From NCBI GenBank assembly GCA_017444985.1, contig JAFSVK010000003.1, forward strand, positions 1 through 64,000: DNA of 64,000 nucleotides, given 5' to 3'. The position numbers were made by a program, and so were the translations under genes. Origin of the DNA: Bacillota bacterium. GTDB lineage: Bacteria > Bacillota > Clostridia > Lachnospirales > CAG-274. Positions 4,639 through 48,433 of the stretch are shown here, piece after piece. Each line of letters starts with the position of its first letter. Position 1 is the first letter of the stretch. The notes beneath the pieces are model-generated. The model was not told the DNA's origin and ran no database searches. It saw only the letters and a program-made list of their open reading frames with translations.

Positions 4639-5171
4639 TGACAAAAAAAGCCATAGGCTCAAGGGTATATCTCAGAGATGAGACCAACAAATACGCCGCG
4701 GAATTTATGAGCTATATAGAGGAATATCTGGAGCTCGATCCCCTTAAAAAAATGTTGAGATACGATCAGCATTTCGGCGTGTCAAGGCTTCAGCACAGCG
4801 TAAATGTAGCCTACTATTCCTACAGAATAGCAAAAATGATAGGGGCAGATCCCAAAAAGGCGGCAAGAGCGGGTATGCTTCACGACCTGTACTACTACGA
4901 TTGGCATGTTAAGAAGACACCTCAGCTCCACGCCTACTTTCACCCCCGTCTTGCCCTTAAAAACGCACAAAGACTGGTGCCCGACCTTTCAAAAGAAGAG
5001 AAGGATGCCATACTTAAACACATGTGGCCTCTTTACTGGGGCATACCAAAATATAAAGTTTCCTACTGCGTAACTCTTGCCGATAAATATGCCGCCACCT
5101 TGGAAGTGTGCTACAACTGGGGAGGATATTTCGGAAAGAAAGCATTAGGCATTTTTAAAAAACAAAAATAG
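4638..5171 (+). CDS. HD-domain phosphohydrolase
   Basis: 177 residues with an HD metal-binding core. A histidine lies in LQHSVNVAYYS (about residues 52-62), the defining HD in GMLHDLYYYDW (about 75-85), and a further histidine in ILKHMWP. A likely ligand Asp lies in the VTLADKYAA stretch. It is probably a cytosolic metal-dependent phosphohydrolase acting on a nucleotide or similar substrate, which cannot be named from sequence. The end of the gene, including its stop codon, overlaps the 5' arm of the cobalamin riboswitch that controls the next operon. Confidence 0.8.
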   Translation: MTKKAIGSRVYLRDETNKYAAEFMSYIEEYLELDPLKKMLRYDQHFGVSRLQHSVNVAYYSYRIAKMIGADPKKAARAGMLHDLYYYDWHVKKTPQLHAYFHPRLALKNAQRLVPDLSKEEKDAILKHMWPLYWGIPKYKVSYCVTLADKYAATLEVCYNWGGYFGKKALGIFKKQK

Positions 5172-5252
5172 AATAACCGAGGAGAAGCCGGTGAGAATCC
5201 GGCACAACAGCCATTACCGTATTTGAATTTTTTCATAAGCCGGGTCGCCTCT
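5144..5252 (+). promoter_or_regulatory. Cobalamin riboswitch aptamer
   Basis: The core GAAGCCGGTGAGAATCCGGC at about 5183-5202 matches the B12-box signature (GGTGnnAAnnCC inside a short stem). It is followed by AGCCATTACCGT in place of the usual CGCCACTGT, and by AAGCCGGGTCGCCT at 5237-5250, matching the 3' conserved segment. AGGC near 5147 can pair with GCCT at 5247-5250 to close P1. The 5' part overlaps the end of the HD-domain gene. It lies directly upstream of the ECF/DUF4430 operon. A covariance search against RF00174 would settle the exact ends. Confidence 0.85.
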
Positions 5253-5254
5253 TT

Positions 5255-5293
5255 ACACCTATGCTTGGGTAGATGAAGCAGCGGTGTTTTTTT
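5255..5293 (+). terminator. Riboswitch-controlled intrinsic terminator
   Basis: ACACC (5255-5259) pairs with GGTGT (5283-5287), and TGCTT (5262-5266) pairs with AAGCA (5276-5280). A run of seven T follows (5287-5293). It lies just after the aptamer and 42 bases before the first start codon. This is the expected expression platform: corrinoid binding would favour termination. That direction is inferred from how most such riboswitches work. Confidence 0.8.
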
Positions 5294-5334
5294 GCAGGGC
5301 TGTTTTATACAGTCCTTTTTTTACGGAGAAACAT

Positions 5335-6273
5335 ATGAAAAAAATAATAACCCTACTTCTTATACTTATATTATCGCAAAACGTTTACGCCTACGATGCG
5401 GAAGCTACCTTAAGGGAAGTAAAAGAAAACACCGACATATCCTCCCTTACCTATGCTCCCATAGGTGGAGAGTGGTCGGTACTCTACCTTGTAAAAAGCG
5501 GCATTGCCAAGCCTTCGGAATTTGGCGCTTATAAAGAGAAAATAGCCGAGCTTTTAAAAACCACCCAAGGAGAGCCCGACAAAAGAAAGTATACCTCCTA
5601 CAGCAGGCTTATACTTGCCTTGAATGCTTTAGGCTCGGATCCCAAAAATATAGAAGGCTATGACCTCTACTCAAAGCTTGAAGACTATGAAAAGGTAATA
5701 AGCCAAGGCTTAAACGGTGCTGTTTTTGCCCTTATCGCCCTTAACAACGGAAATATTTCCACTCCCGTAAAGGAAAGGTATATTTCTTACATACTTTCAA
5801 GGCAAAAAAGCGACGGTGGTTTTTCACTCATGGATGAAAGTGAGCCCGATGTAACGGCTATGGTACTGCAATCCCTTGCACCCTTTACATATAAGGAAGA
5901 TGTTAAAGAGGCGGTAAACAAGGCTTTAGACTATCTTTCAAAGGCACAACTTGAAAACGGCGGTTATGAAGCCTACGGAAGCGAAACAAGTGAATACACT
6001 TCACAAGTCATAATAGCACTTACCGCCCTGAATATAGACCCGCAAGAAGATGAAAGATTTATAAAAAATGCTTCTCTTATAGATAATATATACAGCTACC
6101 GCACAAAAAAAGGCTTTGCCCATACCCCATGGGGTGAAACAAACGCCATGGCTACAGAACAAGCCTGCTGTGCCTTGACCTCATACAAGCTTTTTAAAGA
6201 AGGAAAGGGCTGTATCTACTCCCCCGCAGCCTCATATAAAGCTGTTTTGGAGGGATTGTTATGCGTTTGCTGA
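5335..6273 (+). CDS. Secreted alpha/alpha-barrel protein, transcobalamin alpha-domain-like
   Basis: 312 residues from ATG 5335, with GGAG upstream and a signal peptide (MKKIITLLLILILSQNVYA). The mature part is a string of helical-hairpin repeats of the squalene-cyclase/prenyltransferase-repeat type: QKSDGGFSLMDES (about 160-172), QLENGGYEAYG (about 203-213) and KKGFAHTPWGETNAMATEQA (about 261-280). The same alpha6/alpha6 fold forms the N-terminal domain of animal intrinsic factor and transcobalamin. It is the first gene after a cobalamin riboswitch and overlaps the DUF4430 gene by 13 bases, so I infer a corrinoid-binding role together with that protein. An enzymatic terpenoid role is unlikely: it is exported and lacks an evident DxDD acid motif. 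Confidence 0.7.
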   Translation: MKKIITLLLILILSQNVYAYDAEATLREVKENTDISSLTYAPIGGEWSVLYLVKSGIAKPSEFGAYKEKIAELLKTTQGEPDKRKYTSYSRLILALNALGSDPKNIEGYDLYSKLEDYEKVISQGLNGAVFALIALNNGNISTPVKERYISYILSRQKSDGGFSLMDESEPDVTAMVLQSLAPFTYKEDVKEAVNKALDYLSKAQLENGGYEAYGSETSEYTSQVIIALTALNIDPQEDERFIKNASLIDNIYSYRTKKGFAHTPWGETNAMATEQACCALTSYKLFKEGKGCIYSPAASYKAVLEGLLCVC

Positions 6274-7046
6274 AAATATGGGGTACCTTTGGTGCCCTTG
6301 CCCTTCTTTTGCTTGTGCTTACCTTTGTGTTTACGGGAAAAAGCCCCAAAACCACACTTCCCGATACTCTTGAAAGTACGACATTTCAAGAGGAAACACA
6401 AGAAAAAACGGAATATGAAACTTTTTCCGAAGAAACTACCCTTGAAGAAAGTACAGCGGAAGAGACCTCAACAGAAGAGACTACCGAAGAAACTACGGAA
6501 GCTATAGAGGAGTCCACGGAAGAAACTACGGTAGAAGAAAGAACAGAAGAAACATCTGCCGAAAAAAAAGAAGAGACCGTACCCGAAAAACCTGTCGAAA
6601 AAGAGGCTCCCTCCGAAAAGGAAGATGAAAAGGCGGAAAGTATATCCTTCTGTACCCTTTCCGTAAGGTGCGATACCATACTTAACAACAAAGAAAGTGT
6701 CAAAGAAGAAATACTTGAAATAGTGCCTAAAGACGGCTGTATTTTAGAACAAACGGACATAGAGTTAAAGCAAGGTGACAGCGTTTTCGACCTCCTTAAA
6801 AGAGCCTTGGATGCTAAAAATATACATATCGAATACTCCTATACCCCCCTTTATGAAACGGTGTATGTAGAGGGTATAGCAAATATATACGAGTTTGATG
6901 CGGGAGAGCTTTCGGGCTGGACATACCATGTAAACGGCGTATCTCCCAATGTGGGCATGAGTGCCTTCTACCCCGAAAAGGGAGATAATATAGAAATACT
7001 CTACACCTGCGATCTGGGAAGGGATGTGGGCAATACCTTTGAATAA
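6261..7046 (+). CDS. Membrane-anchored DUF4430 protein, transcobalamin beta-domain-like
   Basis: 261 residues. An N-terminal membrane anchor (about 5-27) is followed by a long Glu/Thr-rich linker (about 32-125, many ETTEE-type repeats) and one C-terminal DUF4430 domain (about 165-257). The domain shows GDSVFDLLKRAL, then LSGWTYHVNGVSPNVGMS and a final GDNIEILYTCDLG. DUF4430 corresponds to the transcobalamin-like C-terminal domain. The start overlaps the alpha-barrel gene, with GGAGGG upstream, and the end overlaps ecfT. The linker would let the domain reach into the wall, where it could pair with the secreted alpha-barrel protein and pass corrinoid to the transporter. That role is inferred. 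Confidence 0.75.
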   Translation: MRLLKIWGTFGALALLLLVLTFVFTGKSPKTTLPDTLESTTFQEETQEKTEYETFSEETTLEESTAEETSTEETTEETTEAIEESTEETTVEERTEETSAEKKEETVPEKPVEKEAPSEKEDEKAESISFCTLSVRCDTILNNKESVKEEILEIVPKDGCILEQTDIELKQGDSVFDLLKRALDAKNIHIEYSYTPLYETVYVEGIANIYEFDAGELSGWTYHVNGVSPNVGMSAFYPEKGDNIEILYTCDLGRDVGNTFE

Positions 7047-7860
7047 AAAAAAGTACTCTTATCATCCCCTTGTGGAGTTTTTATACTTTTTTTCGGTGCT
7101 TTTCATCACCTTTGTAAGTTTCAACGCCATATCCTTGGCGCTGTCCTTTGTGGGAAGCTTCCTGTTTATGTGCAAGAGAAAAGGCATAAAGGACACCTTG
7201 CTTTTTTTTATAAAAACTGTGCCCGTATTTTTACTCTTTTCTCTTATAAACCCTCTTTTTAACCACAGAGGCATAACCACCTTAGCCATCCTGCCCGACG
7301 GAAACCCTCTTACGAAAGAAGCTGTATTTTTCGGTATAGCAGCAGGTGCTATGGTATTTAACGCCATAGTATGGTTTTCAAATATGTCGGACATACTTAC
7401 GGAGGAAAAGATAGTATATATTTTCGGCTTGATACTGCCTAAGGGTGCCCTTTTGCTGTCTATGAGCTTTAGGTTCATACCCCTTATGAAGGAAAGCTAC
7501 GGTAAAATACTTGCCACAAGAAAACTTTTGGGCGAAAAAGGCATACTTTTGTACAAAAACTGCCTGCTCATACTTTTTAACCGCTTTTTTGAAGGCTCCA
7601 TAATAACAAGCGACTCCATGTGCTCAAGAGGCTACGACACGGGAAGAAGGACCTCCTACAATATTTTTATACTGAAAAAAAGAGATATTTTTACCATCGC
7701 GGTGCTTGTGCTTCTTTTCTTGCTTATATTTTTGGGTCTTAAAAATATAAGAGCGGTGTACTACCCCTATTTTAAACTTAACATAGATATAAAGGAGTAC
7801 ATTTTATTATTTTTACTTTTTGTGCTTATACCCCTTGGAAGAGGTTTATATTATGAGTGA
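7024..7860 (+). CDS. ecfT: ECF transporter transmembrane (T) component
   Basis: 278 residues with several hydrophobic helices in the EcfT/CbiQ pattern. The coupling-helix motif SRGYDTGRRT (about 200-209) matches the Ala/Ser-Arg-Gly motifs that dock T components onto the ATPases. MSFRFIPLMKESY (about 149-161) is also family-typical. I use ATG 7024 with GGAAGGG just upstream, and TTG 7039 is possible. It overlaps the gene before by 23 bases and the ATPase gene after by 8 (ATGAGTGA). With a dedicated ATPase/S fusion and a B12 riboswitch, this looks like a substrate-specific (group I-like) ECF transporter. Confidence 0.88.
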   Translation: MWAIPLNKKKYSYHPLVEFLYFFSVLFITFVSFNAISLALSFVGSFLFMCKRKGIKDTLLFFIKTVPVFLLFSLINPLFNHRGITTLAILPDGNPLTKEAVFFGIAAGAMVFNAIVWFSNMSDILTEEKIVYIFGLILPKGALLLSMSFRFIPLMKESYGKILATRKLLGEKGILLYKNCLLILFNRFFEGSIITSDSMCSRGYDTGRRTSYNIFILKKRDIFTIAVLVLLFLLIFLGLKNIRAVYYPYFKLNIDIKEYILLFLLFVLIPLGRGLYYE

Positions 7861-10165
7861 TAATATTCTGGAGATCAAAAATTTAAACTTCTGCTATCCC
7901 CAAAAGGATACCTTATCTCTTGCGGATATAAACCTTAATGTAAAACAGGGGGAGATACTTCTCATATGCGGCAGAAGCGGTAGCGGAAAGACCACACTTT
8001 TAAGGTGTCTTAAGACCCTTCTTGAACCCGTGGGAGAAAAATCGGGCGATATACTTTTTAAAAGCAAGCCTTTGGGAGAGTATTCTCCACGGGAACAGGC
8101 GGAAAATATAGGTTTTGTGCAACAAAGCCCCGAAGATCAAATAGTTACCGACACCGTTTGGCACGAGCTTGCCTTTGGCCTTGAATCCTTAGGTGTGAAA
8201 AACAAAGATATAAAATTAAAGCTGGCGGAAGTTTCATCATTTTTGGATATAGGGCATATTTTCCAAAGGAAGACCGCCTCACTTTCGGGAGGCGAAAAAC
8301 AGATAGTTGCCCTTGCCTCGGTGCTTACATTAAAGCCGGAAATAATAATACTTGATGAGCCTCTCTCTCAGCTTGACCCGGCCTGTGCCAAAAAGTTTAT
8401 ATCCCTTTTGCTTAGGGTAAACAGAGAGCTGGGTATAACACTTATGATCTCCGAACATATAACGGAAAATATATTTCCCTTTGCTCACAGGGTACTTATT
8501 ATGGAAGCGGGGCGTATTACGGCAGACCTTCCCCCAAGAGAGATTTTAAAAGAGGAAAAGAGCAAAAACATATCCCTTTTACTGCCTACCCCTGCCAGAA
8601 TATACCTTTCAAAGCCTGTGGGTACTCCCCCTTTAAACTGTGGAGAGGCAAGAAACTATCTTTATAATTTTAAGGAATTTTCCCCTGTGGAAATACCCGT
8701 TTTCAAAGAGGGGGAGGCTGTTATCACCGCCTCGGAGCTTGCCTTTTCCTACGGTGAAGAAGAGATACTTAAAAGTGTGGATCTTAAAGTATACAAAAAC
8801 GAGTTTTTCGCTGTGGTAGGACAAAACGGCAGTGGTAAAAGTACTCTTGTAAGCCTTCTTTCGGGTATTTTGAAAAAGAACGGGGGGAAACTTAAAACAA
8901 AGGGTAAAGTACTGCTTTTGCCCCAAGACCCACGATACTTATTTGCCCAAAACAGCTTAAAAGAAGAAAACTTAGATAAAGAAACGGTGCGTGCTCTCGG
9001 TATAGAGCACCTTTTACCCTTCCACCCCTTTGATATTTCGGGAGGAGAGCTTCAAAAGGCGGCTCTTGCCAAAATACTCTCCCTTTCCCCCGATATACTC
9101 ATTATAGATGAGCCTACAAAGGGTGTGGACGGCTATTCCAAAGCCCTTATAGGCTCCTACCTTAAAAGCCTTGATATTACGGTAGTTGCCGTAAGCCACG
9201 ATCTGGACTTTTGTGGGGAGTTTGCAGACAGATGCGCCTTTCTCTTTAACGGAGAGATAGCCACCACCGCCCCTACTCATGAGTTTTTTGTAAAAAACAG
9301 CCTTTACACCACGCAAGCCTCTTCCATATCAAAAGATATTATAGAAGGTGCCGTGACCGCAAAGGAGATAATACACGCCATAGGCGCAGAGGAAGAAAGC
9401 TCGGGGGATATACCCCCTCCGCCTCCAAAAACGGAGGGACTTGTAAAAAACACCCTTTCCATGGAAAGAAAAAAGAAAAAAAGGCTTCTTTTGGCGCTTC
9501 CCCTTATACTGCTTTTTATACCCCTTGTAATATACATAGGTATAAAATATTTTAACGACAGAAAGTATTTTTTTATAAGTACCGCCATACTTCTTATTTC
9601 ATTTATGCCCTTTGTGGCTGTATTTGAAAGTAAGAGCATAAAAAAAAGAGAGCTTGTTATAATAGCCCTTTTATCCGCTCTTTGCTGTGTGGGCAGACTC
9701 ATATTTTTCCCCTTCCCCGCCATAAAACCCCTTACCGCCCTTGTGGTGATATCGGGGGTGTCTATGGGAGCGGAAGCGGGCTTTGCCGTAGGTGCTGCGG
9801 GAAGTTTACTCAGCAACTTCTATTTCGGTCAGGGGCCTTGGACACCTTGGCAAATGTTTGCCTACGGTATTATAGGTTTTATATCGGGAATATTTTTTTC
9901 CCTTACAAAAATAAAGAAAACAAGTATAAATCTTGGGATATTCGGCTTTCTATCGGTACTTTTAATATACGGACCCATAATGAACCCCGCCTCGGTGCTT
10001 ACGGCTCAACCCAATGCCGATATGAAGCAGATACTTGCCTCTTTTGCGGTAGGTATATCCTTTGATATGATACATGCGGTAAGTACCGTAATATTTATGC
10101 TCTCTATCTCCGAGCCTATTATAAAAAGGCTTGAGAGAATAAAGATAAAATACGCTATATTATAA
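7853..10165 (+). CDS. Fused ECF transporter: two ATPase domains plus S component
   Basis: 770 residues from ATG 7853, which follows GAAGAGG. ATPase 1 (about 1-240) has Walker A GRSGSGKTT, Q-loop VQQSPEDQ, signature LSGGE and Walker B IIILDEPLSQ. ATPase 2 (about 283-490) has GQNGSGKST, signature SGGELQKAA and ILIIDEPTKG. After a Pro-rich linker (IPPPPPKTEG) come two helices and then a six-helix S component (about 600-770) with GVSMGAEAGFAVGAAGSLLS and GQGPWTPWQ. This joins EcfA, EcfA' and EcfS in one chain. The riboswitch and DUF4430 neighbours point to cobalamin or another corrinoid as substrate. Only that specificity is inferred. Confidence 0.88.
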   Translation: MSDNILEIKNLNFCYPQKDTLSLADINLNVKQGEILLICGRSGSGKTTLLRCLKTLLEPVGEKSGDILFKSKPLGEYSPREQAENIGFVQQSPEDQIVTDTVWHELAFGLESLGVKNKDIKLKLAEVSSFLDIGHIFQRKTASLSGGEKQIVALASVLTLKPEIIILDEPLSQLDPACAKKFISLLLRVNRELGITLMISEHITENIFPFAHRVLIMEAGRITADLPPREILKEEKSKNISLLLPTPARIYLSKPVGTPPLNCGEARNYLYNFKEFSPVEIPVFKEGEAVITASELAFSYGEEEILKSVDLKVYKNEFFAVVGQNGSGKSTLVSLLSGILKKNGGKLKTKGKVLLLPQDPRYLFAQNSLKEENLDKETVRALGIEHLLPFHPFDISGGELQKAALAKILSLSPDILIIDEPTKGVDGYSKALIGSYLKSLDITVVAVSHDLDFCGEFADRCAFLFNGEIATTAPTHEFFVKNSLYTTQASSISKDIIEGAVTAKEIIHAIGAEEESSGDIPPPPPKTEGLVKNTLSMERKKKKRLLLALPLILLFIPLVIYIGIKYFNDRKYFFISTAILLISFMPFVAVFESKSIKKRELVIIALLSALCCVGRLIFFPFPAIKPLTALVVISGVSMGAEAGFAVGAAGSLLSNFYFGQGPWTPWQMFAYGIIGFISGIFFSLTKIKKTSINLGIFGFLSVLLIYGPIMNPASVLTAQPNADMKQILASFAVGISFDMIHAVSTVIFMLSISEPIIKRLERIKIKYAIL

Positions 10166-10179
10166 AAGGAGGTGTTTGT

Positions 10180-13100
10180 GTGATTACAGACACAAAAAGA
10201 AAGATCTCTTTATTTCTCGTTCTTGTGCTGAGCCTTGTCAGCTGTATAAGCTTTCAAAGCTTCGGAGCGGGAAGCGTAAGGTTTATACTTACGGGAGATA
10301 CACAGCACTCCGAGGGTGCCCACCTTTCTTATGAAACTTGGGTAGACACCACGGTAGATCTAGAGGGAGATAATGCGGATGTTCTTATGAACAACGCCCT
10401 TACTTCCCTGGGCTATGAGGTAGGCTATTCCTACGGCTACCTCGACTCCGTAACATCCCCGGGAGTTATTAGCTTAGGCTCGGGTACAAACGGCAACAAC
10501 TCGGGCTGGATGTTCATGGTAAACGGCGAGATCCCTCCCGTTGGAATGTCGGACTATGTATTAAACGACGGAGATGTATTTGAAGTTTTCTATGTAGACG
10601 ACTACATGGCTGAAATTTACGGCTACACTCTTACCATAGAGCCAAGCGATGCCAATGTTACCATATACGACAAAAACGGCGATGTAGTGGAAAAGTCCCC
10701 TTGGGGCGACTACTACGCTCTTACCTACGGTAATTACACCTACTCCGCTACCCTTAACGGCAAAACTGCCTTAGGTAGCTTTACCGTAAACTCTCCCACT
10801 CCCCTACTTAAAATAGAAAGTGGCATAAATACCCTTAATTTTAAGCTTACAACAGACTCCGTACACTCCGAAGGGGAACATAAGGAGTATGTAACGGCTA
10901 TAGACGAAGATGTTACATACAACACGGGTGTAGCATTTACGGATATATTTAAAACCGTTCTTGCAAATAAAAATTACAGCTGTGAGTTTAACAGCTACAA
11001 CTTCCTTGACTCCGTAACGGACCCTCAAGGCGTAAAGCTTGGAAGCTATACCAACGGTGCAAACTCGGGCTGGATGTTTAAAGTAAACGGCACTATACCC
11101 GATTACGGTATGGATAGCTATGTACCCACCTCGGGAGACAAGGTAGAAGTTTTCTATGTAGATGACTATATGGCTGAAATTTACGGCTACAGCCTTGCCC
11201 TTAGCCTTACCCCCGAAAATATAGACTTCTCCATATACGATAAAACAGGAAATAAAGTTGAAAAAAGCCCTTGGGGCGACTACTATGCCCTTATATACGG
11301 TGATTACACATACACAGCCTCAAAAGAAGGCTATGTTACCAAAAAAGGCAGTTTTACCGTAAACACCCCCACCCCCGCCCTTGTCGTAGCCCTTTCCGAG
11401 GCTTCCGCAGAAAATGTTAAAACAGGCATACCCGAAATAGCTCAGGCTCCCACGGCAGACGATACATCTTCCCCTCTGTGGAGAACAAAGCTTAATGTAG
11501 GCTATGCAGGCTTTAGCGGTATCGCCGAAGATGACGGCTATATATATAATGCGGCAAACAATGTTTTAAGAAAAATAGACAAAACAAGTGGTGCCGTGGT
11601 AAAAGAGGCTACTCTTCTTACCTCCATAGGCTATAACTACTTCTTGGGTTCAAGTAACGAGAGCATATTTGTACAACTCTCCGATGGCAGAGTACAGGCA
11701 TTTAACAAAGAACTTGTATCTCTGTGGGTAAGTGAGGCACCTTCCTTTAAGGAAGTACAGGGTATATCCCCCATATACTGCGACGGAAATTACCTTTATG
11801 CCGCTACCCTCTCCACAAATCCTTCAAAGGGCTACGGCTGTATTTACTGCGTATCCCTTGAAGATGAGGACAGCACCGACACTACCGAGACCAAAAACAT
11901 ACTTTGGCAGTTTACTCCCGACAGTGCAGGCAATTATGCAGGCTTCTATTGGTCGGGTGCTTGCCCCGTAGGGGATAAGTATATTGCCATAGGCAGCGAA
12001 AACGGAAACTTTTATGTTTTAAACAAGGCTACGGGCGCGCAGGTATCTGCCCTTAAGGTATCCGAGGCAGCCGTAAGGACTACCCCCGTATACTACGAAG
12101 GAAGCCTCTACTTTACAAGCTATGACGGTTATGTAAACAAGGTAACTGTAAATGAGGCTACAGGCGAGCTTTCAAGCCTTAAACGTATAAAAGTAGCGGA
12201 AAACGCCGTATCCTCTTCGGGAAAATGCGTAGTATACAACAACAAAGTATATGTAGGCTCTAACGGAAGCGGTTATTCTTTAGGCTATATATCCGTAATT
12301 GACAGTGAACTTAAAAACATACTCTACAGCTTTGAGACCTCGGGCTCCGTTACGGCTAATCCCTTTGCGGCAACAAAATACGGTGTTATAAATGTTTACT
12401 TTACCGTAAACTCACCCGAAGGACCCCTTTATATACTTACGGATAGTGGAGAAGATATATCCATATCAAACTACTACCTCCCCGAGGGTGAATACGCACA
12501 GTACTGCATACACTCCCCCCTTGTGGATGAAAACGGCACCCTCTTCTATCAAAATGATTCGGGCTACCTTACAGCCCTTAAGAAGAACACCGCAATATCC
12601 GAAGAAACCTCCACCGAAGTCACCTCTTCCCTTACCGAAACTTCTACGGAAGAGACTACAAGACACTATTCAAGCGGTGGTGGCGGCGGTGGCTCCTCAT
12701 CTTCTTTTGTAACAATAAGCGCTTGTGTTATAGGTGATGACCTCCATCCCGATAGCGCACATAAAAACTATGTTTATTGGGCAGATGAAAGAAACTACAC
12801 CTTCTCAAAGGGTACCACAGTATCACAGGCTTTAAAGAAGCTCTTTGACGATGCTTCCCTTACCTGTGACGGTCTTGAAAGCGGATATATACGCTCCGTA
12901 ACAAGTGCCGATGGCGTCACCTTGGGAGAATTTGACAACGGTGTAAACTCGGGCTGGGTATATACCATAAACGGTTCTCAACCCAACAAAGCCATAAACG
13001 AATATGTGCTTTCAAACGGTGATGTTCTTGTATTCTGCTACGTAGACGATTACACCAAGGAAACAGGCTCTTCAAAGGTAAGAACAGGCTCAGATGAAGA

Positions 13101-13722
13101 GACCTCTACCACGGAAGTAACTGAAACCACCACAGAAGAAGTTCCCGAATCTGTAACATACGAGAACACGGAAGTTATCACAAGCAACCCTTCAAATTTC
13201 GCCTTTGATGATGTAGAGGAAGACTACTTCGCCTACACCGCTATAAATGAACTCAGCCAAAAAGGTATTTTAAAAGGCAGAGAAGAAGGTCTCTTCCTTC
13301 CCAAGGCAAACATTACAAGAGCCGAGGTAACAGCCCTTCTCTACAGACTCTCAAATGCCGAGGGTCGATACTCCCACAACTTTAAAGACGTGGAAGAGGG
13401 TGCTTGGTATGAAAACTATGTAGCCTGGGCATACGAAAAAGGCTATGTAAAAGGCACAAGCTCCGATACCTTCGCCCCCGATGAATACATTACAAGGCAG
13501 GACCTCTGCTGTATACTTGAAAGATACACAGACCTCTCCGCCTTCCCTCAAAGAGAATACCCCGAATTTAAAGACGAGAAAGAAATATCATCCTACGCAA
13601 AAACAGCCGTAGAGACTCTCTACAAAGCCTCAATAATAAACGGCTACCCGGACGGCACCTTCGCCCCCAAAGATAACATCACAAGAGCCGAGACTGCCGT
13701 AATGATATACGCTGTACTTTAA
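10180..13722 (+). CDS. SLH cell-surface protein with three DUF4430 modules and a beta-propeller
   Basis: 1180 residues from GTG 10180 after AAAGGAGG. Order: signal peptide (about 1-28); DUF4430 module 1 (about 30-148, NNSGWMFMVNGEIPPVGMS); a short PEGA-like strand domain; DUF4430 module 2 (about 212-345, NSGWMFKVNGTIPDYGMDS); a second PEGA-like domain; a PQQ-like beta-propeller of seven or eight repeats (about 430-805); a Ser/Thr/Gly linker; DUF4430 module 3 (about 845-970, NSGWVYTINGSQPN); a Thr/Glu linker; and three SLH repeats (about 1005-1180) with ITRAE or ITRQD motifs. SLH repeats bind pyruvylated wall polymers, so the protein should sit on the wall surface. As last gene of the B12-riboswitch operon it probably captures corrinoid for the transporter. 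Confidence 0.85.
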   Translation: MITDTKRKISLFLVLVLSLVSCISFQSFGAGSVRFILTGDTQHSEGAHLSYETWVDTTVDLEGDNADVLMNNALTSLGYEVGYSYGYLDSVTSPGVISLGSGTNGNNSGWMFMVNGEIPPVGMSDYVLNDGDVFEVFYVDDYMAEIYGYTLTIEPSDANVTIYDKNGDVVEKSPWGDYYALTYGNYTYSATLNGKTALGSFTVNSPTPLLKIESGINTLNFKLTTDSVHSEGEHKEYVTAIDEDVTYNTGVAFTDIFKTVLANKNYSCEFNSYNFLDSVTDPQGVKLGSYTNGANSGWMFKVNGTIPDYGMDSYVPTSGDKVEVFYVDDYMAEIYGYSLALSLTPENIDFSIYDKTGNKVEKSPWGDYYALIYGDYTYTASKEGYVTKKGSFTVNTPTPALVVALSEASAENVKTGIPEIAQAPTADDTSSPLWRTKLNVGYAGFSGIAEDDGYIYNAANNVLRKIDKTSGAVVKEATLLTSIGYNYFLGSSNESIFVQLSDGRVQAFNKELVSLWVSEAPSFKEVQGISPIYCDGNYLYAATLSTNPSKGYGCIYCVSLEDEDSTDTTETKNILWQFTPDSAGNYAGFYWSGACPVGDKYIAIGSENGNFYVLNKATGAQVSALKVSEAAVRTTPVYYEGSLYFTSYDGYVNKVTVNEATGELSSLKRIKVAENAVSSSGKCVVYNNKVYVGSNGSGYSLGYISVIDSELKNILYSFETSGSVTANPFAATKYGVINVYFTVNSPEGPLYILTDSGEDISISNYYLPEGEYAQYCIHSPLVDENGTLFYQNDSGYLTALKKNTAISEETSTEVTSSLTETSTEETTRHYSSGGGGGGSSSSFVTISACVIGDDLHPDSAHKNYVYWADERNYTFSKGTTVSQALKKLFDDASLTCDGLESGYIRSVTSADGVTLGEFDNGVNSGWVYTINGSQPNKAINEYVLSNGDVLVFCYVDDYTKETGSSKVRTGSDEETSTTEVTETTTEEVPESVTYENTEVITSNPSNFAFDDVEEDYFAYTAINELSQKGILKGREEGLFLPKANITRAEVTALLYRLSNAEGRYSHNFKDVEEGAWYENYVAWAYEKGYVKGTSSDTFAPDEYITRQDLCCILERYTDLSAFPQREYPEFKDEKEISSYAKTAVETLYKASIINGYPDGTFAPKDNITRAETAVMIYAVL

Positions 13723-14077: not shown

Positions 14078-15139
14078 TTGGTAAAGTTAGTTTTAGTTGA
14101 TAATGATGAATACTTTATAAAAGGATTTAGCAGATATATTTTGGAATATCAATCGAATATCGAAATTATCACTTATACCGATATTGAGGTTTTTAAAGCT
14201 TCCTTAGCATCTATAGCTTTTGACTTAGTACTCATATCGGAAATTTTTCCCATAGACGACAGTCTTAAAAATTTAAAAAACCTATTTATATTAAGTGATG
14301 AGACCTTTGAAGACGATACCTGCAAAAAAATAAACAAGTACCAAAAAACAGAAACTCTTTTAAAAGAAATCATGCTTGGATATGCCGAGCTTAAAGGAGA
14401 TAGGCGACTTATCACAAACAATGAAACTACTGTAAAGCTCATAGGTGTATATTCTCCCATAGGCGGTAGCGGAAAAACCACATTTTCCCTTGCTTTGGCA
14501 GGGTGTTTGGCAAAAAGGAATGTGGGTGTGTTGTATTTAAGTTTGGAAAAATTTTTCTCGGCAGAAAGGTATTTGGGAGAAAATTTAAACCCAGGGTTGT
14601 CCGAACTTTTTTTGAAATTAAAAAACAAGAGCGTAAGTATTTCATTTGACATAAACAAAAAAGTTCAAACAGACTCAAGCGGTGTAAAATATATCACTCC
14701 TCCCGAAAGTGCTATGGAATACGGAGAAATGACCGATGAAGAGATGGTCAAACTCATAAACGAAATAAGTTATTCAAATGTAGCAGATTATGTAATAATA
14801 GATTTTCCTACCGAATATAACGAAGGTGTCATAAACACATTAAGCAGCTTAGATACCATAGCTTTTATAGTAAATGAAGATAGTGCATCTATGCTAAAAG
14901 CTACGAAATTTGCAAAAGAATTTGACTTAATACCCTCTCTAAACTCTCTATACGATAAGGTATATTTATTCGCCAATAAAACACAAGGTAAAAGTCCTAC
15001 CCAGGTCTTACAAAATTTATATAAAAATAAATCTATACTTGGCTGTATACCAAATATGAACTTAGAGGGGATCACGGATATAAACAGCCTTTCCTCCGTA
15101 ATGGATGGTTATATGGCAGGATTTTTACAAATGTTGTAA
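14078..15139 (+). CDS. tadZ: TadZ/CpaE-like pilus localisation ATPase
   Basis: 353 residues starting at TTG 14078 after AGGAGG. An N-terminal receiver-like half (about 1-105, LVLVDNDEYF with the acidic pair) is followed by a ParA/MinD-type ATPase domain (about 118-350). That domain carries the deviant P-loop SPIGGSGKTT (about 126-135) and a Walker B VIIDFP. CpaE/TadZ proteins place the Flp pilus machine in the cell. It is first in a long same-strand run of tad genes, 12 bases before tadA. Confidence 0.82.
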   Translation: MVKLVLVDNDEYFIKGFSRYILEYQSNIEIITYTDIEVFKASLASIAFDLVLISEIFPIDDSLKNLKNLFILSDETFEDDTCKKINKYQKTETLLKEIMLGYAELKGDRRLITNNETTVKLIGVYSPIGGSGKTTFSLALAGCLAKRNVGVLYLSLEKFFSAERYLGENLNPGLSELFLKLKNKSVSISFDINKKVQTDSSGVKYITPPESAMEYGEMTDEEMVKLINEISYSNVADYVIIDFPTEYNEGVINTLSSLDTIAFIVNEDSASMLKATKFAKEFDLIPSLNSLYDKVYLFANKTQGKSPTQVLQNLYKNKSILGCIPNMNLEGITDINSLSSVMDGYMAGFLQML

Positions 15140-15151
15140 GGGAGGGGCGCT

Positions 15152-16489
15152 ATGCTCAGTAAAAACATACCCGGACAAATAGGGGATGTTGTTCAAGAGG
15201 CAGAAGAAAATGCAGTTATAGAACCTTCTATAAACGAAAACAAAAGCAAAGAGGAAACACTTTTTGATAGAGTGAGAAAAGAAGTTGACAGGAGAAGAGA
15301 TGCCAACAGAAATATTTCCGACAGCGAACTTATAGATATGATAAATGATATTGTATCCGAGCTGTCAAGAGAAAAATATATGAGCATATCTTCCAAAAAC
15401 GACCTCATACAAAGCGTTTACAATTCAATGAGAGGATTAGACGCTCTTCAGCCCTTGATAGACGACCCTCAAATAACGGAAATTATGATAAATGGTCCCG
15501 ACGATATTTTTATCGAAAAGGAAGGCCGACTTTTTAAAACAAACACGAAGTTTTCATCAGCTGAAAAGCTTGAGAATGTAATACAAAATATTGTTTCAAG
15601 CGTAAATAGAACTGTTAACGAAGCTTCCCCCATAGTAGATGCAAGATTGAAGGATGGCTCAAGAGTAAATGTTGTTTTACCGCCCATAGCTTTAAACGGA
15701 GCGACTGTTACCATAAGAAAATTCCCCGAAACACCCATGACAGTGGAAAAACTTATAGAATACGGTTCTATCACTCCGACGGTTGCCGATTTTCTGTTGC
15801 AGCTTGTAAAAGCAAAATACAATATTTTTATAAGCGGTGGTACAGGTTCTGGTAAAACAACATTTTTAAATGCTCTTTCCAACTTTATACCTAAGGATGA
15901 ACGTATTATCACTATTGAAGACAGTGCTGAGCTTCAAATAAAAGGTGTTGCAAACCTTGTTCGGCTTGAAACCAGAAATGCCAACATGGAGGGAAAAGGC
16001 GAGATAACCATAAGAGATCTTATAAAATCTTCCCTTAGAATGCGCCCCGAGAGGATAGTTGTAGGTGAGGTGAGAGGTGCAGAAGCCCTTGATATGCTTC
16101 AAGCTATGAATACAGGTCATGACGGTTCCCTTTCAACAGGACACGCCAATTCCACACAAGATATGCTCTCCCGTTTGGAAACTATGGTTCTACAAGGTGC
16201 GCAGATACCTATAGATGCCATCAGACAACAAATAGGTTCTGCGGTAGATGTTATTATACAACTTTCAAGACTGAGAGATAAGTCAAGAAGAACGGTGCAA
16301 ATAGTAGAAGTATTAGGATATGTAAGAGATGAAAACGGTAACGGATATGTAAAGCTAAATCCTCTTTTTGAATTTGTAGAAAAGGGTGAAGATGCCAATA
16401 AAAGAATAATCGGCGGACTGGAAAGAACAGAAAATCCCTTTATAAACACACATAAATTTAAAATGGCAGGAATAGAACCCTGTATATGA
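15152..16489 (+). CDS. tadA: TadA/CpaF pilus assembly ATPase
   Basis: 445 residues, a hexameric secretion ATPase of the CpaF/VirB11 branch that powers Flp pilus assembly on the cytoplasmic face. It shows an N-terminal helical domain, Walker A GGTGSGKT (about 229-236), an Asp box IITIEDSAEL (about 252-261), Walker B RIVVGEVRG (about 301-309) and a His box TGHDGSLSTGHANS (about 321-334). The length is normal. GGAGGGG precedes ATG 15152. Confidence 0.95.
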   Translation: MLSKNIPGQIGDVVQEAEENAVIEPSINENKSKEETLFDRVRKEVDRRRDANRNISDSELIDMINDIVSELSREKYMSISSKNDLIQSVYNSMRGLDALQPLIDDPQITEIMINGPDDIFIEKEGRLFKTNTKFSSAEKLENVIQNIVSSVNRTVNEASPIVDARLKDGSRVNVVLPPIALNGATVTIRKFPETPMTVEKLIEYGSITPTVADFLLQLVKAKYNIFISGGTGSGKTTFLNALSNFIPKDERIITIEDSAELQIKGVANLVRLETRNANMEGKGEITIRDLIKSSLRMRPERIVVGEVRGAEALDMLQAMNTGHDGSLSTGHANSTQDMLSRLETMVLQGAQIPIDAIRQQIGSAVDVIIQLSRLRDKSRRTVQIVEVLGYVRDENGNGYVKLNPLFEFVEKGEDANKRIIGGLERTENPFINTHKFKMAGIEPCI

Positions 16490-16497
16490 GGTAATAT

Positions 16498-17310
16498 ATG
16501 AATTACTTTAAAAAGAGAAAGCAACTAAAAAAGGACATAGCCATGTATGCCGTTACAGAAAACGGAAAAACAAATTACGCCTACTATGTTATGACAAAAC
16601 AGGAAAGTTTCTTCTACACAATTGTGGGAGTACTGCTTTTCGGACTTTTGGGCTTTACATTTTACAGAAGCATTATTGCAGTGGCTATTACAGGAGTTTT
16701 CGGTATATTCTTTCCCGACTATATGTATAAACTTCTGCTGAACAAACGCAAGGCAAACCTTAATATGCAATTTAAGGATCTTCTCTACTCCATATCCTCA
16801 AGCCTAAGTGCAGGCAGAAGTGTGGAGACGGCTTTTATGGAAGCCCCTAAAGATTTGGAAATGCTCTATCCCAATCCCGAGACCGATATCATAAAGGAAC
16901 TTGAATATATAAACAGTGGTCTCAGGTTAAACGAAACCATAGAAAGTCTTCTTTATGATTTTTCTCAAAGAAGCGGTGATGAGGACATTAAAAGCTTTGC
17001 AGATGTTTTTATAAGCTGTAAAAGAACAGGCGGTAACCTTATTGAGGTTGTAAGAATAACTTCAAACATTATTTCCGACAAAATAGAGATAAAAAAGGAT
17101 ATCGCATCCGGTCTGGTGGAGAAAAAGTTTGAACAAAAAGGTATGTGTGCTCTCATGCTCCTTGTAATATTGGGGCTTAGCTATATGTCGGGAGATTACA
17201 TGGACCCTATGTTCACCACAGTCCAGGGCAGGATCGCAATGACATTTGCCCTTCTCCTACTTATAGCAAGCTACTTTGTTGGAGAGAGGATCACAAATAT
17301 TCAAGTTTAG
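16498..17310 (+). CDS. tadB: TadB-like pilus inner-membrane platform protein
   Basis: 270 residues with hydrophobic segments near residues 38-75 and near the C-terminus (about 215-265). Between them is a cytoplasmic T2SSF-type helical domain that includes LLYSISSSLSAGRSVETAFM (about 96-115) and RRTGGNL-like KRTGGNLIEVV (about 177-187). With TadC it forms the membrane platform on which TadA acts. It starts 8 bases after tadA. Confidence 0.88.
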   Translation: MNYFKKRKQLKKDIAMYAVTENGKTNYAYYVMTKQESFFYTIVGVLLFGLLGFTFYRSIIAVAITGVFGIFFPDYMYKLLLNKRKANLNMQFKDLLYSISSSLSAGRSVETAFMEAPKDLEMLYPNPETDIIKELEYINSGLRLNETIESLLYDFSQRSGDEDIKSFADVFISCKRTGGNLIEVVRITSNIISDKIEIKKDIASGLVEKKFEQKGMCALMLLVILGLSYMSGDYMDPMFTTVQGRIAMTFALLLLIASYFVGERITNIQV

Positions 17311-45998: not shown

Positions 45999-46027
45999 TT
46001 GACAAATCTCCTACCTTATAATATAAT
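45999..46027 (+). promoter_or_regulatory. Consensus promoter of the metal ABC transporter operon
   Basis: TTGACA (45999-46004) and TATAAT (46022-46027) are exactly 17 bp apart, directly after the repeat element. AAAGGAG precedes the ATG at 46068. No clear Zur box was seen. Confidence 0.85.
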
Positions 46028-46067
46028 CTTTTTCGATTTTCAAGAGATCCAAAGGAGAAAATTTATA

Positions 46068-46910
46068 ATGAACAGAAGAATATATGCCCTCTGTCTTGCC
46101 CTTGTTTGCCTTTTAAGCGGCTGTAAGGGGGTAAAGGAAGACAAAAAAGGTCTTGTGATATATACAAGCTTTTATGCTCCATACGATTTGACAAAAACCA
46201 TTTGCGGCGATAAGGCAGAGGTTTACAATATGGTACCTGCAGGCACGGAACCCCACGACTGGGAGCCTACTTCAAAAGATATGCTCTCCCTTAACTCTGC
46301 GGATGTGGTTTTCTATAACGGTTTAGGTATGGAAGGCTGGATAGATAAAGCAAAGGAAAATACCAAAGCCGATTTTGTGTGTTTATCTTCCTTTATAGGA
46401 AAAGAAAAGGAGGATCCCCACATTTGGCTCTCCCCCGTAAATGCCGTTAAGATGTCTGAGATCATAACCGATACTCTCTCGGAAAAAGACAGTGAGAACG
46501 CCTCCTACTACAAGGAAAACTTTGAAAAATTCAAAACCGAAGCCTTGGCACTTACGGAGGAGTATAAACCTCTTATAGCTCAAAAGGAAAAGAAGCAGAT
46601 AGTGGTCTCCCATGCAGCCTATTCCTATCTGTGCGACGATTTCGGCCTTGAACAGTTGGCTGTAGAGGGTATGAGTGCGGAAAGCGAACCCTCCCCTTCC
46701 AAAATGAAGGATATTATAAACTTTGTAAAAGAAAACGATGTAAAATACATATACTACGAAGAAAGTGTTTCTCCCAAAGTAGCGGAGGTACTTTCCGAAG
46801 AAGCGGGTACAGAGCTTTTACCCCTCAACAGCTTTGAAAACAGCGAAGAAGGCAAAAGCTACACCACCGTAATGAAAGAAAACCTTGAAAACGTACTAAA
46901 AGGATTATAA
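46068..46910 (+). CDS. znuA: Zinc/manganese ABC transporter substrate-binding lipoprotein
   Basis: 280 residues from ATG 46068 (AAAGGAG upstream). A lipoprotein signal with lipobox LLSGC ends near residue 17. Cluster 9 (ZnuA/TroA) metal-ligand motifs are GTEPHDWEPTS (about 61-71), EDPHIWLSP (about 115-123) and VVSHAAYSYL (about 181-190), plus an acidic ligand region near the C-terminus. There is no His-rich loop. Zinc is more likely than manganese, but sequence alone does not decide. It is followed by the ATPase gene after one base. Confidence 0.9.
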   Translation: MNRRIYALCLALVCLLSGCKGVKEDKKGLVIYTSFYAPYDLTKTICGDKAEVYNMVPAGTEPHDWEPTSKDMLSLNSADVVFYNGLGMEGWIDKAKENTKADFVCLSSFIGKEKEDPHIWLSPVNAVKMSEIITDTLSEKDSENASYYKENFEKFKTEALALTEEYKPLIAQKEKKQIVVSHAAYSYLCDDFGLEQLAVEGMSAESEPSPSKMKDIINFVKENDVKYIYYEESVSPKVAEVLSEEAGTELLPLNSFENSEEGKSYTTVMKENLENVLKGL

Positions 46911-46911
46911 C

Positions 46912-47643
46912 ATGAGCATACTTTCGGTAAAGGATCTTTCCTTTGACTACCCCGACAAAAGCATATTGCACAGACTTACCTTCAGCATAGACAAGGGAGA
47001 TTTTCTCTGTATAGCAGGTACCAACGGCACGGGAAAAAGCACCCTTTTAAAGCTTATACTAAACATTCTGCGCCCTCTTGAGGGCAGTATAAGCCTTTTG
47101 GGAAAGTCATCGGTAAACTTTTCGGAGTATGACAAAATAGCCTATGTTTCCCAAAAAGCCACTTCCTTTAACAGGGATTTCCCCGCAACGGTGGAGGAGA
47201 TAGTATCTTTGGGGCTGTATAAGAAAAACTCTTTTTTCAAAAGAGAAAGCAAGAAAGAAAGAGAGCAAAAAATAGACGAGGTCCTGAAAAAAGTAGGACT
47301 TACGGAGTATAAGAAGAAGAAAGTGGGTCTTTTGTCGGGAGGACAACAACAGAGGGTATTTATAGCAAAAGCCCTTATATCCCAACCCGAGATCATATTT
47401 TTGGATGAGCCTACGGTAGGTATAGATGTAAGTGCGGTAGACTCTATATGTTGCCTTTTGGGCGATCTGAACAAAGCGGGTCTTACCATTGTGATGGTAA
47501 CTCACGACATATCCTCGGTACTTTACCACTCCACCAAAATACTCATACTAAACGAAGCAGGCGGAGGCAAACTTATGGACAGCGAAAAATTCAACTCAAA
47601 GCCTATATTTGCCCACTTCTCTCACGGAGGTCACAATGCTTGA
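46912..47643 (+). CDS. znuC: Zinc/manganese ABC transporter ATPase
   Basis: 243 residues: Walker A GTNGTGKST (about 36-44), Q-loop YVSQKATSF, signature LSGGQQQRVFIAKAL (about 142-156), Walker B IIFLDEPTVG (about 163-172) and the switch His in VTHDISS. It energises metal uptake with the permease encoded next. Its end overlaps the permease start by 8 bases. Confidence 0.93.
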   Translation: MSILSVKDLSFDYPDKSILHRLTFSIDKGDFLCIAGTNGTGKSTLLKLILNILRPLEGSISLLGKSSVNFSEYDKIAYVSQKATSFNRDFPATVEEIVSLGLYKKNSFFKRESKKEREQKIDEVLKKVGLTEYKKKKVGLLSGGQQQRVFIAKALISQPEIIFLDEPTVGIDVSAVDSICCLLGDLNKAGLTIVMVTHDISSVLYHSTKILILNEAGGGKLMDSEKFNSKPIFAHFSHGGHNA

Positions 47644-48433
47644 AATATTTACCATGCCCTTTATGCAAAGGGCTATTGTTGTGGCAATATGTATATCTGT
47701 TATAACACCCCTTATAGGTAACACTATAGTACTTAAAAGGCTTTCCGCCATAGGCGATGCCCTTTCTCACTCGGGTCTTGCGGGGGTAGCTATAGGTCTT
47801 TGCTTCGGTTTTAACCCCATTATGACCGCCGTGGTATTTTCCATAATATCCGCTCTTATAATAGAATATATACGAAGCCGTTTTTCAAACTACTCGGAAA
47901 TGGCTACAGCTGTGGTGCTAAGCTTCGGTGTAGGCATAGCTGCGGTATTTTCGGGATTTATAAAAAATGCCGCCTCTTTCGGTTCCTTCCTCTTCGGCTC
48001 TATAGTAGCCATATCACAGACGGAGCTTATAACGGTGGTGATACTTGCAATATTCGTACTTGCCATACTTCTCTTCCTATACAGAGAGCTTTTATACACC
48101 GCCTTTGACGAGGAAAGTGCTCAACTTTCGGGGGTGCCCGTAAGGAGCGTGAACCTGATATTCACCATACTTACAGCCATAGTGGTTTCCATAGCCGCAA
48201 GAACGGTGGGAGCCTTGGTGATATCCTCCCTTATGGTCATACCCGTAGCCTGTGCCATGCTGGTATCCAAAAGCTACAAACAAAATATGATATTTTCCGT
48301 GGTGTTTGCCCTTTTGTTTACAATAAGCGGCTTGGGCGTTACCGCCTTCTACGACCTTAAACCCGGAGGCACCATAGTTCTTATAGGTATAGCAGTACTT
48401 ATACTTTTGATATTTGTCAGAAAAAAGGAGTAA
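47636..48433 (+). CDS. znuB: Zinc/manganese ABC transporter permease
   Basis: 265 residues from ATG 47636, preceded by CGGAGG. It has eight or nine membrane helices. The ABC-3 family hallmarks are visible as [20 protein letters not shown] (about 33-52) and the [17 protein letters not shown] stretch (about 190-206). It forms the membrane channel of the 46068-48433 operon. prfC starts 2 bases after its stop. Confidence 0.93.

Follow-up and report, generated by a model that had tools for sequence, protein, structure and literature searches.

A predicted corrinoid-scavenging operon with an intrinsic-factor-like protein pair and a CbrT-type importer in a Bacillota bacterium

Many gut bacteria depend on corrinoids that they cannot make, and the extracellular capture of these compounds by Gram-positive bacteria has been little studied; the characterized surface capture systems that we found are those of Bacteroides. 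In a Bacillota bacterium of the order Lachnospirales (CAG-274), an aptamer-like element is followed by genes for an energy-coupling factor (ECF) transporter and for several exported proteins, which raises the question of whether this locus captures corrinoids outside the cell and carries them in. We analyzed the 64,000-nt stretch of DNA that contains it (assembly GCA_017444985.1, contig JAFSVK010000003.1, positions 1 to 64,000; hereafter the window). The locus is probably a riboswitch-controlled operon for scavenging cobalamin or cobinamide, in which a putative split intrinsic factor would feed a CbrT-type importer. Sequence, structure, and genomic context provide the grounds for this reading, through the gene content, the riboswitch class, the relationship to CbrT, the carrier-like architecture of the exported proteins, and the corrinoid need of the host.

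The original prediction had placed five overlapping or abutting genes behind the aptamer, and the list of open reading frames (ORFs) together with Pfam searches gave the same content and order. Genes 1 to 4 overlap one another by 8–23 nt and gene 5 starts after a gap of 14 nt; therefore, the five genes likely share one transcript. The features of the locus, all on the forward (+) strand, are as follows.

5160–13722, +: corrinoid-operon locus, with an adenosylcobalamin-type aptamer and a terminator followed by five same-strand genes
5160–5291, +: divergent adenosylcobalamin riboswitch aptamer, conserved core 5179–5250 (RF01482 and RF00174, both sub-threshold; conservation in congeners)
5296–5322, +: intrinsic terminator serving as expression platform, 5' of gene 1 (8-bp stem and T tail in the minimum free energy fold)
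5335–6273, +: alpha protein gene (Pfam PF13243, 1.4e-9; PF00432, 1.2e-7)
6261–7046, +: beta protein gene (PF14478, 4.9e-16 in Pfam and 61.7 bits in the genome search)
6774–7007, +: DUF4430 (transcobalamin-type SLBB) domain of beta (PF14478)
7024–7860, +: EcfT gene (family-level matches, given below)
7853–10165, +: EcfA-EcfA-S fusion gene (two PF00005 and PF07155, Pfam)
~9521–10162, +: CbrT-like S component within the fusion
10180–13722, +: SLH protein gene (three PF14478, PF13360, and PF00395, Pfam)
10384–10578, 10936–11157, and 12811–13041, +: three DUF4430 domains of the SLH protein (PF14478)
~11377–12684, +: PQQ-type beta-propeller (PF13360)
~13201–13707, +: three SLH domains (PF00395)

The cargo is indicated by the S component of the importer. 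Searched as a single sequence against the Protein Data Bank (PDB), the S domain matched CbrT (6fnp_A) at 2.3e-11, with the next match at an E-value of 0.16, and its family profile gave 2.8e-15 for the same chain and 0.27 for the next match. CbrT was the only significant relative among the solved S components, and no significant relation was found to the riboflavin, biotin, folate, and thiamin S components of solved structure. Transport of cobalamin and cobinamide has been proven for CbrT (PMC5997447), and a survey that covered gut genomes catalogued CbrUVT among B12 transporters (PMC6593275). These matches support the assignment of the S component to the CbrT type, for which transport of cobalamin or cobinamide is predicted here, and they also support the corrinoid cargo originally proposed. 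The window EcfT itself had no Pfam match; seven of the 11 members of its family match PF02361 (CbiQ), and the family profile matches the EcfT of PDB entries 5d3m and 6fnp (3.3e-17). With two EcfA ATPases carrying ABC signatures, it makes up an ECF module. The CbrT-type S component, EcfT, and EcfA ATPases are common to the window, to ECF-CbrT of Lactobacillus delbrueckii (PDB 6FNP, PMC5997447), and to CbrUVT (PMC6593275). In contrast to these two systems, the window module is dedicated, carries its S component and both ATPases on a single fused polypeptide, and shares its operon with genes for extracellular proteins resembling corrinoid carriers.

Regulation of the operon was assessed in the window and in its relatives. 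An Rfam scan of the window at gathering cut-offs gave no matches. A permissive search of 601 nt matched RF01482 end to end at 5160–5291 (33.7 bits, E-value 2e-4, gathering score 50), and the only RF00174 match in the host genome fell on the same aptamer, with 17.8 bits against a threshold of 31.5. The aptamer core is kept in two congeners (~50% identical in alpha) with three compensatory base-pair changes, and in both congeners the alpha gene is preceded by a hairpin that resembles a terminator and has a run of T residues. The window element thus shows the features of its class, namely a conserved core and helices, compensatory changes, a downstream expression platform, and a corrinoid gene on its 3' side. 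Among related loci, RF00174 scored above threshold in 7 of 19 upstream regions from relatives within the order, and coordinate mapping in 40 further genomes placed an RF00174 match within the 1.5 kb preceding an operon gene in 23 loci. The mapped sites were all re-found at the same coordinates in the eight loci searched directly. By our estimate, with ~3 matches per ~3-Mb genome, fewer than one such case would be expected by chance in 40. We conclude that the window aptamer is a real but divergent adenosylcobalamin riboswitch, the comparative evidence from operons of relatives being stronger than the score of the window aptamer itself. The original prediction had named a cobalamin aptamer with a terminator, proposed an RF00174 match as its test, and suggested a survey for the same gene order downstream of such matches. 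The aptamer and terminator stand by the RF01482 alignment, the conserved core, and the 8-bp stem, although the score lies under the Rfam gathering cut-off; for RF00174, the window match fell under threshold and above-threshold matches lay upstream of related operons (7/19 and 23/40), so that support for B12-riboswitch control is indirect but strong.

The host genome is consistent with a need for imported corrinoid. It encodes one protein with a B12-binding domain, whose best NCBIfam match is MetH, and it has matches to the adenosyltransferase BtuR and to CobS. CbiC was not found in this draft genome (98.5% complete, so that absence is not proof). A full B12 pathway, which the CbiD and CobS matches had raised, was rejected because CbiC is absent at this completeness and CbiD lies among unrelated genes. 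The lone CbiD (contig C6 of the host genome G000, 8574–9317, locus L159) is surrounded by RecX-like, malic enzyme, and argininosuccinate lyase genes and may be a relic or a repurposed enzyme. The MetH-like protein (contig C147 of the same genome, locus L161, 1329–3698) has 789 aa and matches the 1182-residue MetH model only up to position ~857, so that the reactivation domain at the C terminus is apparently missing. No BtuC-like permease was found in the host genome; the sole FecCD match (47777–48412) lies within a Znu-type permease (47609–48433) and was dropped as a B12 permease, as its neighbours form a zinc-type ABC operon. By eye, this zinc-type uptake operon comprises a binding protein, an ATPase, and the permease (window 45999–48433). 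The gene complement would fit a bacterium that cannot build the corrin ring itself and imports corrinoid for use and remodelling.

The exported proteins raise the second part of the question, namely whether they resemble the animal B12 carriers. The alpha protein has a signal peptide followed by an alpha6/alpha6 toroid, the fold shared by squalene cyclases, prenyltransferases, and transcobalamin. The AlphaFold2 model of the window alpha shows this toroid (pLDDT 92.8, pTM 0.89) and superposes on the alpha domain of transcobalamin with Z 18.1 and 3.2 Å over 241 residues. Squalene cyclases outrank transcobalamin in this comparison (Z ~22 versus 18.1), so the modelled alpha toroid taken alone is uninformative on B12. 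The alpha family profile matches squalene cyclases and thioester domains. In the AlphaFold2 model, each of the six inner helices carries near-invariant polar residues of the family in its first turns (E46, T87/S90/R91, N127, D172/T174, E220/Q224, and Q276), where they are likely candidates for a ligand mouth. The catalytic motif of type II terpene (squalene-hopene) cyclases, DxDD, is absent from the alpha family, which has (D/E)PD(V/I)T(A/G) in its place, with Val or Ile instead of the second Asp.

The beta protein has an N-terminal transmembrane segment (residues 1–29), a Glu/Thr-rich linker of ~100 residues, and one DUF4430 domain. The SLH protein combines three DUF4430 domains, a PQQ-type beta-propeller, and three SLH domains, and its PDB sequence matches are the S-layer protein Sap and BamB. 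The four DUF4430 domains of the window scored 36.7–61.7 bits against the PF14478 cut-off of 23.8, and a genome-wide search with PF14478 found DUF4430 confined to this operon. When the DUF4430 regions were compared across genomes, the beta region (window 6693–7043) was far more conserved than that of the SLH protein (10270–13077); operon-type beta copies are ~45–66% identical to the window beta, versus 23–25% for the SLH-protein domains. The far higher conservation of beta suggests that it may be specialised, perhaps for docking, and hints that the DUF4430 copies could form two functional classes.

Toroid and beta domain are encoded by separate genes in the window and occur in one polypeptide in related loci, for example in two natural alpha-linker-beta fusions (L115:7568–8995 from Tissierella simiarum, and L089:6650–7942). 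These have the domain order of intrinsic factor and are parts of large SLH proteins whose genes neighbour the same operon type. The Tissierella simiarum fusion runs from alpha through a proline-rich linker to beta and was modelled with AlphaFold2 at pLDDT 89. In a Foldseek search with this model, ranks 1–15 were all animal transcobalamin, intrinsic factor, or haptocorrin (E-values 6e-12 to 2e-9), the next match being at 3e-5. Its beta domain aligned with that of human transcobalamin with a TM-score of 0.73, and the VIA-align superposition on intrinsic factor extended over both of its domains (Z 20.8, 353 residues), though at 6.5 Å. The animal proteins thus have a toroid and a small beta domain in the same order as the bacterial fusions, whereas the window halves are separate genes, beta is tethered to the membrane, and no match exists at the sequence level. 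The proposal that two intrinsic-factor-like halves are encoded apart here agrees with the separate genes and with the fusions in related loci, which are structurally closest to transcobalamin and intrinsic factor. Likeness to intrinsic factor itself was found for the Tissierella fusion; the window alpha alone is closer to squalene cyclases.

To see how widely the layout is kept, we scanned for the alpha family, which returned at least 581 relatives, and kept 80 loci from Clostridia and Paenibacillus, in which contig ends account for some shortfall in the counts. Beta lies directly 3' of alpha in 69 of the 80 loci, alpha-beta-EcfT is found in 55, alpha-beta-EcfT-EcfA in 52, and the same order with an S component in 48. 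An ATPase-S fusion occurs in 39 loci and a protein with both SLH and DUF4430 domains in 45; alpha and beta domains share one ORF in 23. The split pair is therefore the rule in this sample and not an oddity of the window. Variant operons have two EcfT/EcfA sets per locus (L084), a separate S component (L112), or the order EcfT-EcfA-alpha-beta-S (L122 and L124).

Capture and import of corrinoid by the operon are well supported, while a clasp formed by a split intrinsic factor and hand-over to the ECF importer make up a sound hypothesis that can be put to the test. On the logic of the riboswitch class, low intracellular adenosylcobalamin would leave the aptamer empty, the terminator at 5296–5322 would stay unformed, and the operon would be transcribed. 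The SLH-anchored protein would display its DUF4430 domains on the wall and raise the local corrinoid concentration, and the alpha toroid, once secreted, would act with membrane-tethered beta as a split intrinsic factor that keeps corrinoid near the membrane. The CbrT-type S component would then receive the corrinoid, with EcfT and the fused ATPases powering import. Binding of the ligand, its clasping between alpha and beta, and its transfer to the importer are our inferences, and several observations count against them or against the wider interpretation. The window aptamer scores under the Rfam cut-offs (33.7 versus 50 for RF01482, 17.8 versus 31.5 for RF00174), and no riboswitch was found near 17 of the 40 sampled operons, although some contigs end early. 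The alpha family profile has no sequence match to transcobalamin or intrinsic factor, and the beta profile has no significant match to any solved protein, these two included. The window alpha model is closer to squalene cyclases (Z 22.0) and prenyltransferases than to transcobalamin. The fusion model represents a Tissierella relative whose alpha part is 37% identical, rather than the window pair, and against the animal carriers it reaches an overall TM-score of 0.42–0.47 with a root-mean-square deviation of 8–9 Å, so that the inter-domain placement is not reproduced. Corrinoid binding by the exported proteins is a prediction only.

In its most specific form, the proposal is that alpha and beta make up a ligand-induced two-protein intrinsic factor on the surface, with the tethered beta delivering corrinoid straight to the CbrT-type S component, and we advance it tentatively. 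The same cargo could be wired otherwise, with an importer that, like CbrT, accepts free corrinoid and surface proteins that do no more than store or concentrate it, without a joint alpha-beta site and with separate binding or other partners. CbrT of Lactobacillus delbrueckii indeed transports without an extracellular binding protein (PMC5997447), and the gap in conservation between beta and the SLH-protein domains may mean that the copies differ in role; the adjacency of alpha and beta in 69 of 80 loci, their repeated fusion, the intrinsic-factor order, and the flexible linker make this wiring rather unlikely. It is possible, and open to considerable doubt, that the operon imports not cobalamin but a precursor or an incomplete corrinoid, such as cobinamide or other cobamides, which BtuR and CobS would finish. 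The presence of CobS, BtuR, and the orphan CbiD without CbiC would suit such a cargo, as would the carriage of cobinamide by CbrT (PMC5997447), although the sequence does not discriminate between corrinoid forms and the MetH-like protein would take imported cobalamin directly.

A more distant alternative makes alpha a secreted terpene cyclase-like enzyme or a glycan-active toroid, and the operon an importer of heme, cobalt, or another vitamin. Among solved proteins, alpha is nearest in both sequence and fold to squalene-hopene cyclases and prenyltransferases, the Pfam match of the S domain carries the name ECF-ribofla_trS, and Staphylococcus lugdunensis has an ECF importer for heme (PMC7299338). 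We nevertheless regard this alternative as very improbable: B12 riboswitches precede the operon in many genomes, the S component lacks a significant relation to the solved vitamin S components named above, the alpha-beta fusion model ranks transcobalamin and intrinsic factor first, and the second Asp of the cyclase motif is replaced in the alpha family.

The original prediction had named no characterized Gram-positive system of this make-up, and its claim of novelty was too strong. In Burroughs et al. 2007 (PMC1796856), a transcobalamin-type SLBB domain was defined in Gram-positive bacteria and found fused to alpha/alpha toroids and to a beta-propeller, in operons with a CbiO ATPase, a CbiQ permease, and paralogous SLBB proteins; the hosts were low-GC Gram-positives usually without key B12 biosynthesis genes, B12 scavenging was predicted, and lateral transfer to animals was proposed. 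As described there, those systems share with the window the secreted or surface DUF4430-type domains, the toroid, the propeller fusion, several SLBB proteins, and CbiO-like and CbiQ-like components. The system is thus not new in kind and is a widespread member of the type predicted in 2007. Beyond the available text of that paper, the features computed here are the riboswitch, the CbrT-type S component, the EcfA-EcfA-S fusion, the SLH anchoring, and the split pair as the standard layout. Our analysis adds the riboswitch association, the CbrT identity, the host need, the survey of the split pair, and the comparison of a natural fusion with solved and modelled carriers. Searches of the open literature returned no experimental work on the operon; subscription papers or preprints may contain some. 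The Bacteroides lipoproteins BtuG and BtuH, which bind B12, offer an analogy in function, as two reports describe surface capture ahead of a riboswitch-regulated B12 importer (PMC6143338, PMC8941943). Their folds differ, however, and so does the membrane system, which uses the outer-membrane transporter BtuB; on the question of likeness to BtuG, the window propeller has matches of the BamB/PQQ type by sequence comparison.

If the proposed split intrinsic factor and its direct delivery are correct, hundreds of Clostridia and Paenibacillus would use a split form of the animal B12-carrier architecture, an ECF transporter would have a dedicated chain of extracellular substrate carriers, and the pair would be a present-day equivalent of the ancestor that gave rise, through fusion, to the B12 carriers of animals. 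With purified alpha and beta, one could test directly whether these carriers have a Gram-positive origin, as proposed in 2007, and whether extracellular carriers can feed ECF transporters.

Directly 3' of the operon starts a group of genes (14078–17310) that, judged by eye, resemble CpaE, CpaF, and TadB from a pilus or secretion system of the Tad type.

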